64,000 nt of DNA, taken from the NCBI RefSeq assembly GCF_028858515.1, contig NZ_JAPJZJ010000002.1, positions 186,001 through 250,000 of the forward strand, given 5' to 3'. The notes below the pieces were generated by a model. The model made no database searches. It worked only from the letters and a program-made list of their open reading frames with translations, and was not told the origin of the DNA. The translations under genes and the position numbers were made by a program. Positions 50,245-63,890 of this stretch are shown piece after piece; position 1 is the stretch's first letter; each line of letters opens with the position of its first letter. This DNA is from Aurantiacibacter sp. D1-12. Its GTDB lineage: Bacteria; Pseudomonadota; Alphaproteobacteria; Sphingomonadales; Sphingomonadaceae.

Positions 50245-51120
50245 ATGCACACGATGGCAATTCCCCCGCAACCCTGGCCGACAGGCGATCTGGAACAGCT
50301 GGAGCCGCTGGTCGCGCGTGTGCTGGCGCCCAATGCGTCGCCATACACCTACACCGGTACGCAGACCTATCTTGTGGGGACAGAGGATCTGGCGGTGATC
50401 GATCCAGGTCCCGATGACCCCGCACATATCCATGCAATTTTGCGCGCCGTGGACGGTAGGCCCATTCGCGCGATCATGTGCACGCACACGCACCGCGATC
50501 ACTCACCCGCCGCCGCACCCTTGGCCAAGCAAACGGGTGCACCGATCGTCGGCTGCGCGCCGCTCCGCTTCGCAGGCGATGGAGGTGATGTAGAGGCCGC
50601 GTTCGATCAGGACTACGAGCCCGACCGCGTGCTGCAGGATGGCGAGACAATGACCGGCACCGGCTGGACGCTCACCGCGCTGTTCACACCCGGCCATATC
50701 TCCAACCACCTGTGCTTTGCGCTGGAGGAAACGGGCGCGGTTTTTACCGGCGATCACGTCATGGGCTGGTCCACCAGCGTTATCGTTCCGCCCGATGGCG
50801 ACATGGCCGATTACGTTGCCAGCCTGCACAAGCTCTACGAACGCGAAGACCGCATCTATTATCCCGCCCACGGTCCGGCGGTGGAGAAGCCCAGGCAACT
50901 GGTGCGCGGCACCATCGGCCACCGCAAGGCACGCGAGGCACAGATCATCAAATTGCTGGGCGAGGCATCGCAGCCGATAGAGGATCTGGTGGCACGGATG
51001 TACTCGGGCGTGGACAAGCGTCTCTGGCCCGCAGCGCAGATGAGCGTCTGGGCCCATCTCATCGATCTGGAACACCGCGGCATGGTCGCTCGTTCGGGGG
51101 ATGTATGGACACACGGATAG
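50245..51120 (+). CDS. MBL-fold metallo-hydrolase (LACTB2-like)
   Basis: A 291-residue metallo-beta-lactamase-fold enzyme. The zinc motif THTHRDH is at about 80-86, followed by GHISNHLCF, GDHVMGW (bridging Asp) and the last His in YPAHGP. The C-terminal ~60 residues form a winged-helix-like domain, as in human LACTB2-type nucleases, so a nuclease or hydrolase role is possible. It overlaps the DUF4230 gene by 16 bases and is head-to-head with glpK. ATG 50254 is an alternative start. Confidence 0.9.
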   Translation: MHTMAIPPQPWPTGDLEQLEPLVARVLAPNASPYTYTGTQTYLVGTEDLAVIDPGPDDPAHIHAILRAVDGRPIRAIMCTHTHRDHSPAAAPLAKQTGAPIVGCAPLRFAGDGGDVEAAFDQDYEPDRVLQDGETMTGTGWTLTALFTPGHISNHLCFALEETGAVFTGDHVMGWSTSVIVPPDGDMADYVASLHKLYEREDRIYYPAHGPAVEKPRQLVRGTIGHRKAREAQIIKLLGEASQPIEDLVARMYSGVDKRLWPAAQMSVWAHLIDLEHRGMVARSGDVWTHG

Positions 51121-60922: not shown

Positions 60923-62290
60923 ATGGCCGACGCTCCCGACAACGCCAAGGCAAAGCTGGCAAGAGGCTCCATAGCCGGGCACCTGGTGAGTCAGACCACA
61001 CCAGCGATCATTGGCGTGGCAGCGATCATGTCTGTAGGCGTGATCGATGCCTATTTCGTCGGCCAGCTGGGCGGGCCGGAACTTGCCGCGATCAGCTTTA
61101 TCTTTCCTGTCACCACGGCGCTCTCCAGTCTCGGTGTGGGCGTGATGGTCGGCATCAACTCGGTCGTGGCCCGCGCGCTGGGTGAAGGCGATGATGAACG
61201 TGCCCATGCCCGCGCCAATGTCGGTATCGTGCTTGGCGTGGTTGCGGGCATTCTCATCGGCCTAACCCTGTTTGCGCTTCGCCAGCCGCTCTTTGCATTG
61301 ATGCAGGCGGACGAGGCGATCCTGCCACTGATCGACGAGTACATGGCACCGTTCGCACTCGGCTTTCCGCTGATGATCGCGATGATGGCAATGAATGGGG
61401 TCTTGCGCGGTCAAGGCGCCGCCAAGAGCAACACGCTTGTCCTGATCGTTTATTCCATCGGCAACTGGGTGCTCGATCCCATTTTGATTACCGGCGCGTT
61501 CGGCTTTGCCGGATACGGCGTTGCGGGAGCAGCATATGCGACGCTGGGCGGTTGGGTGATCGCCATCATGACCGCCTTCTACCTGCTCGGGAAACACCAT
61601 CTGCCGTTCGACCTTGCAGCAACGCGCAATTGCGACTGGAAAACACAGCTTGGCGCGATTTCACGTGTTGCCGGCCCTGCGGCCTTTACCAATTCGATCA
61701 ATCCGGCAGGTCTTGCTGTGCTGACTTCACTTTTGGCTATCGAGGGCCAGGCGGCCGTTGCAGGCTTTGGCGCGGGCGGGCGCCTGCAGGGCCTCGCCGT
61801 GGTGCCATTGCTCGCGCTGTCCGGATCGATAGGCTCAATAGTAGGCCAGAACTGGGGCGCGAAGCAGTTTGACCGGGCGCGCCTGGCGCTGGTGCAGGCG
61901 GGCGCATTCTGCCTGGCATACGGTCTTGGTGCGGCGCTGATCCTGTTTGCTGCGCGGGGATGGTTTGCAGAACTCTTCAGCGAAGAGCCGCAAGTCCTCG
62001 ACGCGACGGTCAACTATCTTGCGATATCGGTATGGGGCTATGCCGGATTCGGTGTGCTGATCGTGGTCAACGGTGCCCTGAATGCCATTGACAAGGCCTC
62101 CAACGCACTCGCCCTTTCACTCACGCGCGTGCTGCTGGTGATGATCCCGATAGCGTGGCTGGCGCGCGCTGCCCTGGGCACAGAGGCGATCTATTATGCC
62201 GAACTCGCCGCCAACATGCTGGGCGGCCTGATCGCTGCAGCGCTGGCATGGTGGGTCTTGTGGAAGAACCCGCCCAAGCAAAGCGCCTAG
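60923..62290 (+). CDS. MATE family efflux transporter
   Basis: A 455-residue inner-membrane exporter with 12 helices in two MatE repeats (ISFIFPVTTALSSLGVGVMVGINSVVARALGEGD and the second-half counterpart LALSGSIGSIVGQNWGAKQFD). It exchanges cationic drugs or metabolites for H+ or Na+; the substrate is unknown. ATG 60923 follows AAGGA by 5 bases. Its stop overlaps the stop of phyR tail-to-tail by 4 bases. No terminator separates the two. Confidence 0.92.
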   Translation: MADAPDNAKAKLARGSIAGHLVSQTTPAIIGVAAIMSVGVIDAYFVGQLGGPELAAISFIFPVTTALSSLGVGVMVGINSVVARALGEGDDERAHARANVGIVLGVVAGILIGLTLFALRQPLFALMQADEAILPLIDEYMAPFALGFPLMIAMMAMNGVLRGQGAAKSNTLVLIVYSIGNWVLDPILITGAFGFAGYGVAGAAYATLGGWVIAIMTAFYLLGKHHLPFDLAATRNCDWKTQLGAISRVAGPAAFTNSINPAGLAVLTSLLAIEGQAAVAGFGAGGRLQGLAVVPLLALSGSIGSIVGQNWGAKQFDRARLALVQAGAFCLAYGLGAALILFAARGWFAELFSEEPQVLDATVNYLAISVWGYAGFGVLIVVNGALNAIDKASNALALSLTRVLLVMIPIAWLARAALGTEAIYYAELAANMLGGLIAAALAWWVLWKNPPKQSA

Positions 62291-63081
62291 TCCAGAGGGC
62301 GGCTCGAGCCGAAGAACAGCGCCTGACTAATCGCTGCGCGGACAGTGTTTTCCTGAAACGGCTTGGTGATGAGATAGGTCGGCTCCGGCCGGTCCCCTGT
62401 CAGCAAACGCTCTGGATAAGCCGTGATGAAAATCACCGGCACGCTGGTGATCTCAAGAACGTCATCCACTGCATCGAGGCCTGAAGAACCATCGGCCAGC
62501 TGAATATCGGCGAGCACCAGTCCCGGCTTGTTGCCAGCAACCACTTCCTGCGCTTGCGTACGGGTGGCTGCAGTGCCGCAAATGTCGTGACCCAGCGATT
62601 TGACGAGGTCTTCAAGCTGCATCGAAATCAGCGGCTCATCCTCGATGATCAGCACGCTTGTTGCGGTTTCGCGCTCGATCTCGCCAATGGCTTCGCGCAC
62701 CAGCGCCTCTACATCGGCTTCATCGATGTCCATGATGGTGGCCGCCTGGGCATTGCTGAAATCTTCGACCGTCGTGAGCAGAAGCGCCTGACGGTTGAGC
62801 GGGGTGATCCGCTTCAGCTGGCTCTGTGCGGCCTCTTCATGCGCGCTGCCGACGCTCTTGCGCTGCCCTACCTCAAGATAGGCGCTGGCCCAGAGCTTGC
62901 TGAAAGCACGGTACAGCGGGACACGGCCTTCCCGAAGCGTTGCGGCCAGGGCTTCATCAGCGATCGCCGCTTCGAGCGTCGCCTGAACAAACGTATCTCC
63001 GGTCTTCTGAGATCCGGTGAGTGCGCGCGCGTAGCGACGCAGGAATGGAAGGTGTGCGGCGACTTCAGCCCCAATCGACAT
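62287..63081 (-). CDS. phyR: General stress response anti-anti-sigma regulator PhyR
   Basis: A 264-residue protein with an N-terminal sigma-factor-like domain (about 5-135; FSKLWASAYLEVG, LTTVEDFSNAQAATIMDID) and a C-terminal receiver domain (about 142-258) with phosphorylatable Asp192, Thr220 and Lys240. On phosphorylation PhyR titrates the anti-sigma NepR and frees EcfG. The usual neighbours nepR and ecfG are not within the window on either side. An EcfG-type promoter lies upstream at 63125-63150, suggesting positive feedback. The start is ATG 63081. Confidence 0.95.
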   Translation of the reverse strand: MSIGAEVAAHLPFLRRYARALTGSQKTGDTFVQATLEAAIADEALAATLREGRVPLYRAFSKLWASAYLEVGQRKSVGSAHEEAAQSQLKRITPLNRQALLLTTVEDFSNAQAATIMDIDEADVEALVREAIGEIERETATSVLIIEDEPLISMQLEDLVKSLGHDICGTAATRTQAQEVVAGNKPGLVLADIQLADGSSGLDAVDDVLEITSVPVIFITAYPERLLTGDRPEPTYLITKPFQENTVRAAISQALFFGSSRPLD

Positions 63082-63124
63082 ATGATCCCTTTCCGGTAAC
63101 TGGTCCGGCTTGATAACGGACTTT

Positions 63125-63150
63125 GAACGCCCGGTTCTTCATGCGGTTCC
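63125..63150 (-). promoter_or_regulatory. EcfG-type promoter of phyR
   Basis: On the minus strand -35 GGAAC (63150-63146), 16-base spacer, -10 CGTTC (63129-63125). It matches the general stress response consensus GGAAC-N16/17-CGTT. The predicted start is about 63118. Confidence 0.8.
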
Positions 63151-63236
63151 ACGCACCAAGCAAACCTTTCCACCGCTGGCAACAGCCATATTTTTCCTGC
63201 CCATACAAAACATTGCAAATTTTTTTGCATCTGACG

Positions 63237-63262
63237 GGAACAGTTTTTTTGGCGGGGCATTC
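63237..63262 (+). promoter_or_regulatory. EcfG-like promoter of the candidate sRNA
   Basis: -35 GGAAC (63237-63241), 16-base spacer, -10 CATTC (63258-63262). It differs from the phyR promoter by one base in the -10 box. Transcription would start at about 63268, where the first sRNA stem begins. Confidence 0.55.
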
Positions 63263-63267
63263 TGCTT

Positions 63268-63358
63268 GTATCACCGCCAAGACCCCCCTCCCGTCCAAGC
63301 GGCGGTGATACGATCCCGAAAGGCCCCCACTCACCCCGAGTGGGGGCCTTTTACTTTT
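63268..63358 (+). ncRNA. Candidate stress-regulated small RNA with C-rich loop
   Basis: No protein-coding gene is apparent here, but the structure is strong. An 11-bp perfect stem, GTATCACCGCC (63268-63278) with GGCGGTGATAC (63301-63311), is extended by flanking pairs. It closes a 22-nt loop containing CCCCCCTCCC (63283-63292), complementary to Shine-Dalgarno sequences. Then comes a short linker and an intrinsic terminator. The predicted RNA is about 90 nt and follows an EcfG-like promoter. C-rich anti-SD loops are typical of trans-acting alphaproteobacterial sRNAs. Confidence 0.65.
63320..63358 (+). terminator. Rho-independent terminator (sRNA 3' end)
   Basis: A 13-bp perfect stem (AAGGCCCCCACTC at 63320-63332 and GAGTGGGGGCCTT at 63338-63350) with a 5-nt loop, followed by TTACTTTT. 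The T tract is on the plus strand, so it terminates plus-strand transcription even though both flanking genes are on the minus strand. Confidence 0.9.
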
Positions 63359-63396
63359 AGCGGACAAAACTTGCGGGATCTGTGCAGGGAGGAATT

Positions 63397-63792
63397 TTAG
63401 CGCTTGAGGAGCGCGAAGGGACTGGCCTTGTCGCGCATGCAGAGCGCCTTCACCAGCTCATCCGGATCGTAGGGTTTTTCGAATGTGACGCCCATCTCGG
63501 CGATATCGGTCGGAATGTCCTCTGGCGAGCCGGTAGAAAAGGCAATGCGGGGCGGCCTGGGACCAAGCGCTGTGACCAGCTCTGCAATCGCCCAGCCATC
63601 ATCCCGGTCTGCCAGATGCACATCAAGCACAATAGCATCGGGCCGCGGGCCATCGTGCAGTTCGCGCATGGTGGCCTTCATTGTCTGGCAAACGACGACG
63701 TCTCTAGTCCCGGCTCGGGTGAGAGCATCTTCCAGAGCCAGCGCGAGGATGGCGTCATCCTCCACCAGCAGCACACGCGCGGGTGGTTTCAT
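63397..63792 (-). CDS. Single-domain response regulator
   Basis: A 131-residue receiver-only protein. Acidic pocket EDD is at about 11-13, phospho-acceptor Asp57 (AIVLDVHL), Ser/Thr87 (AFSTGS) and Lys106 (TFEKPY). It has no output domain. Its receiver belongs to the group found near general stress response loci. It may shuttle phosphate to or from the PhyR-activating kinase, which is inferred only. The start ATG 63792 gives the standard receiver length; ATG 63846 is in frame upstream. An EcfG-type promoter lies at 63864-63890. Confidence 0.88.
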   Translation of the reverse strand: MKPPARVLLVEDDAILALALEDALTRAGTRDVVVCQTMKATMRELHDGPRPDAIVLDVHLADRDDGWAIAELVTALGPRPPRIAFSTGSPEDIPTDIAEMGVTFEKPYDPDELVKALCMRDKASPFALLKR

Positions 63793-63863
63793 CTTGTGTT
63801 TCTTCTGATGAACGCGACCAAGCAAACGAAGTCCTTCCGGATGCATGATCGCATCCGTTACCC

Positions 63864-63890
63864 GAACGCCGCTTGGCCCGGCACGGTTCC
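63864..63890 (-). promoter_or_regulatory. EcfG-type promoter of the single-domain response regulator
   Basis: On the minus strand -35 GGAAC (63890-63886), 17-base spacer, -10 CGTTC (63868-63864). The predicted start is about 63857, upstream of both possible ATG codons. Confidence 0.75.

Follow-up and report, generated by a model that had tools for sequence, protein, structure and literature searches.

Introduction

The sigma-factor switch that governs the general stress response (GSR) of Alphaproteobacteria is well known. Post-transcriptional control within the GSR has been demonstrated for few species, with GsrN in Caulobacter and the EcfG-dependent ReC64 in Rhizobium. In the cited part of its description, GsrN from Caulobacter crescentus is an RNA of ~100 nt which is activated by SigT and carries a C-rich 5' loop and a 3' intrinsic terminator, and its homologs are typically located near GSR genes (PMC5869019). 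GsrN activates katG, the target studied best, and compensating changes in its loop and in the katG leader rescued the expression of katG-lacZ (PMC5869019). ReC64 from Rhizobium etli is presented, in the sections of the report used here, as an 88-nt EcfG-dependent ncRNA in the ecfG1-phyR region, for which the start was determined by 5' RACE and the promoter was tested with fusions; conservation was reported for another R. etli strain and R. leguminosarum (PMC3892343). C-rich loops resembling an anti-Shine-Dalgarno (anti-SD) sequence are also present in the alphaproteobacterial hairpins of ar14, cuckoo and CcsR, of which the CcsR are stress RNAs. According to excerpts of the respective papers the loop CCUCCUCCC is found in three or four hairpins of two Sinorhizobium RNAs, and an RpoH-type promoter drives the joint transcription of CcsR and a DUF1127 protein gene (PMC3927594, PMC10253847).

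Here we describe a locus next to phyR in Aurantiacibacter sp. D1-12 and its relatives, which is predicted to encode an ncRNA of ~86 nt. With a probability of roughly 0.7 we expect this RNA to be driven by EcfG and to pair via its C-rich loop with several mRNA leaders, mainly lowering translation under stress.

Results and Discussion

A putative sRNA gene divergent from phyR

The window, by which we mean the whole stretch of 64,000 nt that was analysed, contains the putative sRNA gene on the plus strand between phyR and a response regulator gene (Table 1). The promoter boxes GGAAC (63237-63241) and CATT (63258-63261) are separated by 16 nt, and the -10 box differs from the EcfG consensus CGTT at one base. 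Downstream follow stem-loop 1, whose 11 Watson-Crick pairs stand above one additional G-U pair and whose loop shows CCCCCCTCCC at 63283-63292, and a terminator stem of 13 Watson-Crick pairs (63320-63332/63338-63350; loop 63333-63337), after which the T-rich tail TTTTACTTTT is found from 63349 on. The 5' end of the predicted RNA was set from the promoter spacing and its 3' end from the terminator. These elements had already been recognised in a first-pass annotation of the sequence, which listed an EcfG-like promoter, followed at suitable spacing by a hairpin (11-bp stem, 22-nt loop), a plus-strand terminator of 13 bp and the minus-strand orientation of both flanking protein genes. We could confirm them in the window, as well as the promoter spacing in the relatives.

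Table 1: Features of the sRNA locus (positions in the window).
Feature	Position	Strand	Basis or remark
EcfG-type sRNA promoter GGAAC-N16-CATT	63237..63261	+	sequence and motif scan
Predicted sRNA, ~86 nt	63268..63353	+	fold, covariation, covariance model R1 (97.9 bits)
Stem-loop 1	63268..63311	+	stem 63268-63278/63301-63311, 22-nt loop 63279-63300
C-rich loop motif CCCCCCTCCCGTCC, presumed pairing region	63283..63296	+	CCCCCCTCCCGTCC identical in 30/30 copies, a set itself picked by loop pattern
Intrinsic terminator of the plus-strand RNA	63320..63352	+	sequence, fold, two-sided pair changes
phyR, anti-anti-sigma response regulator of the GSR	62287..63081	-	Pfam PhyR_sigma2, PhyR_sigma-like
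phyR EcfG-type promoter GGAAC-N16-CGTT	63126..63150	-	divergent from the sRNA promoter
Single-domain response regulator gene, converging on the sRNA terminator	63397..63846	-	Pfam Response_reg
EcfG-like site GGAAC-N17-CGTT	63865..63890	-	18 nt before the response regulator ORF

Folding of 63267-63353 resulted in -50.8 kcal/mol (z -9.1), and none of 200 shuffles was equally stable. Together with the covariation described below, this prediction points to a structured RNA with its own terminator, and the C-rich loop would be unpaired and close to the 5' end, as is the case for GsrN. A search for sigma-70 promoters between 63000 and 63500 found none.

Alternatively, the hairpins might chiefly terminate transcription for the minus-strand response regulator gene, as a shared or a dedicated terminator, with no sRNA involved. 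This gene does converge on the terminator hairpin, many copies show a short T run when read on the minus strand, and a generic terminator scan of 63000-63500 called nothing, including the sRNA terminator of the window copy, the T tract of which is weaker than in 21 of the 30 relatives compared. However, a run of 6-8 T was found on the plus side in 21/30 copies, compared to 0-4 on the minus side in all 30, and a terminator alone leaves the EcfG promoter at its fixed distance, the covarying stem-loop 1 and the invariant loop stretch unexplained. As a terminator for a plus-strand gene it would also have nothing to serve in the window, where no plus-strand protein gene ends at this place. We regard this explanation as highly improbable and infer instead that an sRNA is transcribed in Aurantiacibacter sp. 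D1-12 and that its transcription depends on EcfG, as the promoter sequence suggests.

Distribution in related genomes

Of the 199 genomes of the GTDB family, 85 gave a match in a blastn search with the 122 bases of the locus, and 30 of the matching genomes were used to build the covariance model R1. At E ≤ 0.001 this model matched 100/296 genomes of the order, and matches of at least 67 bits were found in 91 of the 296, all from the same family, with the nine others showing weak matches only. Within the class 9/289 genomes matched, of which three strong ones all belong to the family and six are weak, and in the genus g41 93/100 genomes matched at E ≤ 0.001 (89/100 with at least 66 bits, four weak only). 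Stricter filters were applied in searches over more than 40 genomes, with the loss of weak matches. The six weak class hits outside the family (27-32 bits) and one in genome G234 turned out to be plain terminators when read and were rejected.

A scan of named genomes by loop motif yielded at least 119 matching stretches, of which 80 named loci are listed. The matches listed belong to Erythrobacteraceae (Erythrobacter, Qipengyuania, Croceicoccus, Porphyrobacter, Altererythrobacter, Tsuneonella, Pontixanthobacter and others) and Novosphingobium, along with some metagenome-assembled genomes (MAGs) broadly labelled as Sphingomonadales, Erythrobacteraceae, Alphaproteobacteria or Proteobacteria. One match in an Anaerolinea MAG (L095) possesses neither stem nor promoter and was discarded as a chance match.

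Since the promoter lies outside the loop motif used for searching, its conservation represents a free test. All 30 members of the first set have GGAAC-N16/17-CATT, placed 21 or 22 nt upstream of the C run. Among the matches listed, GGAAC was found at that spacing, within 50 nt, in 79/80 named loci, with L095 as the exception, and the full motif with C[AG]TT in 74/80. The 26 lower-scoring copies described below all show GGAAC-N16, and 23 of them also C[AG]TT, the deviants being L386, L389 and L409 (L386 and L409 read by eye). The occurrence in 85/199 family genomes together with the preserved promoter spacing exceeds what chance would give. Concerning the -10 box, the cited part of a study on Sphingopyxis granuli describes a flexible -10 box for EcfG and the in vitro transcription of a CATT promoter by both EcfG1 and EcfG2, with reduced transcription after the change from CGTT to CATT (PMC7083833). 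From these in vitro data CATT appears to be usable for EcfG, but not optimal.

The gene phyR was identified in 71 of the 80 named loci among the matches listed and was always divergent from the sRNA. For eight other loci the fetched stretch stops short of the expected phyR position or barely reaches into it, and L095 lacks the gene. A plus-strand gene stands between phyR and the sRNA in five loci (L097, L136, L086, L111 and L077; two Qipengyuania, two Novosphingobium and one Pseudopontixanthobacter), and the one from L136, the only one tested, encodes cNMP-binding and Crp-type HTH domains. In other Novosphingobium loci phyR is directly adjacent to the sRNA, and the window shows no such gene at the matching place.

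Two genomes of the genus g96 (G333 and G303) harbour diverged copies (L071:1530-1626 and L072:1507-1594) with other C-rich loops, CTCCCCACCTCCCCCC and CCCCCAACCACCCCCC, preceded by GGAAC-N16-CGTT. When 26 additional phyR loci, from 23 genomes lacking a strong match, were scanned by rule, no such element was detected; this is a weak negative since the same rule also overlooked the copy in G303.

Covariation and the invariant core of the loop

To look beyond the best matches, lower-scoring copies were added, consisting of 20 hits from the model search of the order and 10 further places from the blastn search and the search of genus g41, and 26 of these 30 places proved to be real copies. The remaining L401-L404 were judged to be terminators and left out of the alignment (A3). 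Pairing statistics were calculated from a MAFFT alignment of 56 sequences, in which 96.5% of the stem cells pair and 15 of the 24 pairs show two-sided changes, in 94 cells. The corresponding means of the shuffles were 90.6%, 8.5 and 22.3, and none of the 500 shuffles matched the observed values, in a comparison uncorrected for relatedness; slid controls of the 56 sequences likewise stayed far below the observed pairing. Two-sided changes occur in four of the 11 pairs of stem 1, most clearly at columns 6-52 with A-U, G-U and G-C in 27, 16 and 12 sequences, and in 11 of the 13 pairs of the terminator stem. Loss of the stems in related genomes had been named at first reading as a finding that would speak against the sRNA, and both stems proved to be conserved.

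Over the 56 sequences the loop is the most conserved region (mean 0.949), and within the 26 lower-scoring copies it is about level with the 5' stem arm (0.900 vs 0.909). The longest loop stretch which is invariant in 56/56 sequences is CUCCCGU, located at 63288-63294 in the window, and it is followed by a CC that is mostly conserved. In six of the 56 sequences the run upstream of the U contains fewer than six C, and in two of these (L398 and L399) it reads TTCTTC. The variation of the C run beside an invariant CUCCCGU suggests that CUCCCGU is under stronger constraint than the C6 run. The weight that the first-pass annotation had given to CCCCCCTCCC should be shifted accordingly.

The region might also hold a small reading frame or serve as the leader to a gene on the plus strand, as mechanical ORFs overlap it. 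Both neighbours are encoded on the minus strand, and the consensus of the alignment contains no ATG. The C run, the 3' stem arm and the linker also vary in length by single bases between copies, which no reading frame would survive, making this the least probable of all explanations weighed here.

Relationship to known RNAs

No Rfam family reached its gathering score in the window or in 20 relatives. The closest families in the window, all below the cut-off, were 6C (RF01066, 34.6 bits vs a cut-off of 47), CC1840 (RF01521, 33.1 vs 50) and ar14. The two families of the ar14, cuckoo and CcsR group gave 26.3 vs 58.8 bits (RF02344) and 13 vs 65.3 bits (RF02791). Judged by titles and the start of abstracts, searches of open-licence papers in PubMed Central brought up no description of an sRNA at phyR in sphingomonads, and the main text of a paper on the GSR transcriptome of Sphingomonas melonis does not mention small or non-coding RNAs. 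Since neither an Rfam match at cut-off nor a description from sphingomonads was found, we regard the element as a new sRNA family, although one of a kind that is already known. Conservation of the promoter, both stems, the loop and the position next to phyR supports the reading as an sRNA gene on the plus strand behind an EcfG-type promoter, whose transcript is predicted.

The predicted RNA resembles GsrN in its size, the EcfG-type promoter, the C-rich 5' loop, the terminator and the neighbourhood of GSR genes, a likeness of layout and setting, but it differs in its invariant loop stretch CUCCCGU and in that the katG leader is no predicted target. The legend to Figure 9 of the GsrN study shows Erythrobacter litoralis without an apparent gsrN-like gene (PMC5869019). 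Named Erythrobacter species do carry the sRNA described here, and E. litoralis itself is outside the 80 named loci among the matches listed. With ReC64 it shares the position beside phyR, the EcfG-type promoter and a similar length, again a likeness of layout and setting, whereas ReC64 is located downstream of the phyR-tcrY locus according to the part of the report cited (PMC3892343). In contrast to ar14, cuckoo and CcsR it has a single loop with CCCCCCUCCCGUCC instead of CCUCCUCCC and an EcfG-type promoter. The 6C RNA also consists of two hairpins with C runs in the loops. It differs in that the model consensus shows a C6 loop in its second hairpin too, and the cited section of one paper calls it Actinobacteria specific (PMC9569102). 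CC1840 from Caulobacter shows a similar layout and shares some letters near the loop.

If confirmed, an EcfG-promoted sRNA with a C-rich loop at phyR would provide this clade with a post-transcriptional arm of the stress response. If it is unrelated to GsrN, C-rich-loop sRNAs would have been coupled to EcfG more than once. The covariance model and the core motif are now on hand for experiments.

Proposed mode of action and target search

According to our model, stress would activate the PhyR-NepR-EcfG switch, and the sigma factor EcfG would then transcribe the sRNA from GGAAC-N16-CATT divergently from phyR. The resulting RNA is predicted to consist of a 5' hairpin that keeps the C-rich loop open, a short linker and the terminator hairpin. 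Its loop sequence CUCCCGU, complementary to ACGGGAG, would most likely pair in trans with SD-like G-rich stretches in the leaders of several mRNAs, and this pairing would mainly cover ribosome-binding sites, with less translation under stress as a result. We expect pairing with G-rich mRNA stretches because the loop of GsrN pairs with the katG leader, as the cited part of that study describes (PMC5869019). From this analysis we infer that the RNA acts by base pairing and that it mainly represses its targets; the complement ACGGGAG contains the SD-like GGGAG, which makes repression the first choice and activation the second.

In order to find targets we scanned 13 genomes for perfect complements of the loop, ACGGGAGGGG. 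These were not enriched, with 48 sites, 13 of which are the antisense of the sRNA itself, compared to 101 sites for the reversed string; as the reversed string ignores codon use we do not claim a depletion either. An all-against-all blastp of the ORFs at the 35 other sites (E ≤ 1e-8) gave no cross-genome pair. The genome of strain D1-12 contains 65 GGGAGGGG sites, and the sole 11-nt loop complement seen among them, apart from the sRNA antisense, was found 148 nt before the dnaA start. This complement, CGGGAGGGGGG, is located in the dnaA leader at L237:1019-1029 (G000 C5, about 335018). As a target dnaA was rejected, as GGGAGGGGG does not occur within 420 nt upstream of dnaA in 29/29 other sRNA-bearing genomes tested (one leader with 271 nt). 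It is also absent before dnaA in 29/29 genomes without an sRNA match (30 asked, two leaders shorter). Among the dnaA leaders of 30 sRNA-bearing genomes the duplex energy was reached by at most 3 of 60 shuffles only in L264, L287, L290 and L291, at differing positions.

The gene katG is present in 30/30 sRNA-bearing genomes, yet its leaders show no conserved G tract, and it was dismissed as a target with 2/30 leaders lying more than 3 kcal/mol below the average of 40 letter shuffles, in a test in which some start codons were picked by rule and are perhaps wrong. For phyR itself, 7/70 leaders among the matches listed beat all 30 letter shuffles with a mean difference of -2.6 kcal/mol, a signal too weak and too SD-like for us to claim phyR as a target. 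Among the target leads, dnaA, katG and the scan of 13 genomes all failed. Both a generic SD-binding RNA and a few targets with short seeds that are invisible to perfect-complement scans are possible.

Instead of covering ribosome-binding sites, an EcfG-driven sRNA might stabilise or activate mRNAs, as GsrN does for katG. Such an activity would fit the way in which GsrN turns katG on via its C-rich loop, as stated in the cited sections (PMC5869019), and CUCCCGU, which continues into the mostly conserved CC, is not an exact anti-SD sequence. Nevertheless, katG as the target of GsrN gave no signal in 30 leaders, CUCCCGU can pair with the SD-like GGGAG, and a position 3-20 nt upstream of a start codon was found for several of the rare perfect complements, as would be the case for any SD-like string. 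We consider activation as the main outcome rather unlikely. It could also be that the C-rich loop titrates an RNA-binding protein or another sRNA and does not pair with mRNAs at all, as CUCCCGU is invariant in 56/56 sequences and yet no shared mRNA target was found. However, GsrN uses its C-rich loop to act on mRNAs according to the part of the study cited (PMC5869019), and a paper title says the same for 6C RNA, so that titration appears distinctly unlikely to us. Repression of several mRNAs by pairing at their leaders is the reading we prefer.

Hairpins of the type CCCCTCCC-N6-GGGAGGGG were observed at three places in the genome of strain D1-12 (G000; C4:784256-784277, C5:187344-187365 and C6:523454-523475), some of them apparently terminators. 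They are chance reservoirs of the sRNA complement.

Further EcfG-like sites around the locus

As phyR and the response regulator each have an EcfG-like site of their own, three such sites are found within 1.6 kb. Among the matches listed, the EcfG-type site of phyR (N16 or N17) was detected in 52/70 named loci, compared to 0/70 in a control on the opposite strand from which the sRNA promoter was excluded; 18/70 phyR loci have no EcfG site under the rule used. A site upstream of the adjacent regulator was present in 30/44 named loci among the matches listed, and judged from its sequence context the response regulator at 63397-63846 probably belongs to the stress regulon. The genes nepR-ecfG are located ~18 kb away from the sRNA locus behind GGAAC-N16-CGTT, a motif that precedes them in each of the 11 genomes that yielded a NepR among 13 searched from the genus. 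A gene for a CHASE/HWE histidine kinase is divergent from nepR-ecfG (L235:291-1973, minus strand). An additional EcfG-like site, GGAAC-N17-CGTT, is located at 51069 on the plus strand, 10 nt before an ORF of 234 aa with a DUF4230 domain, and from its sequence this ORF is a possible further gene of the stress regulon.
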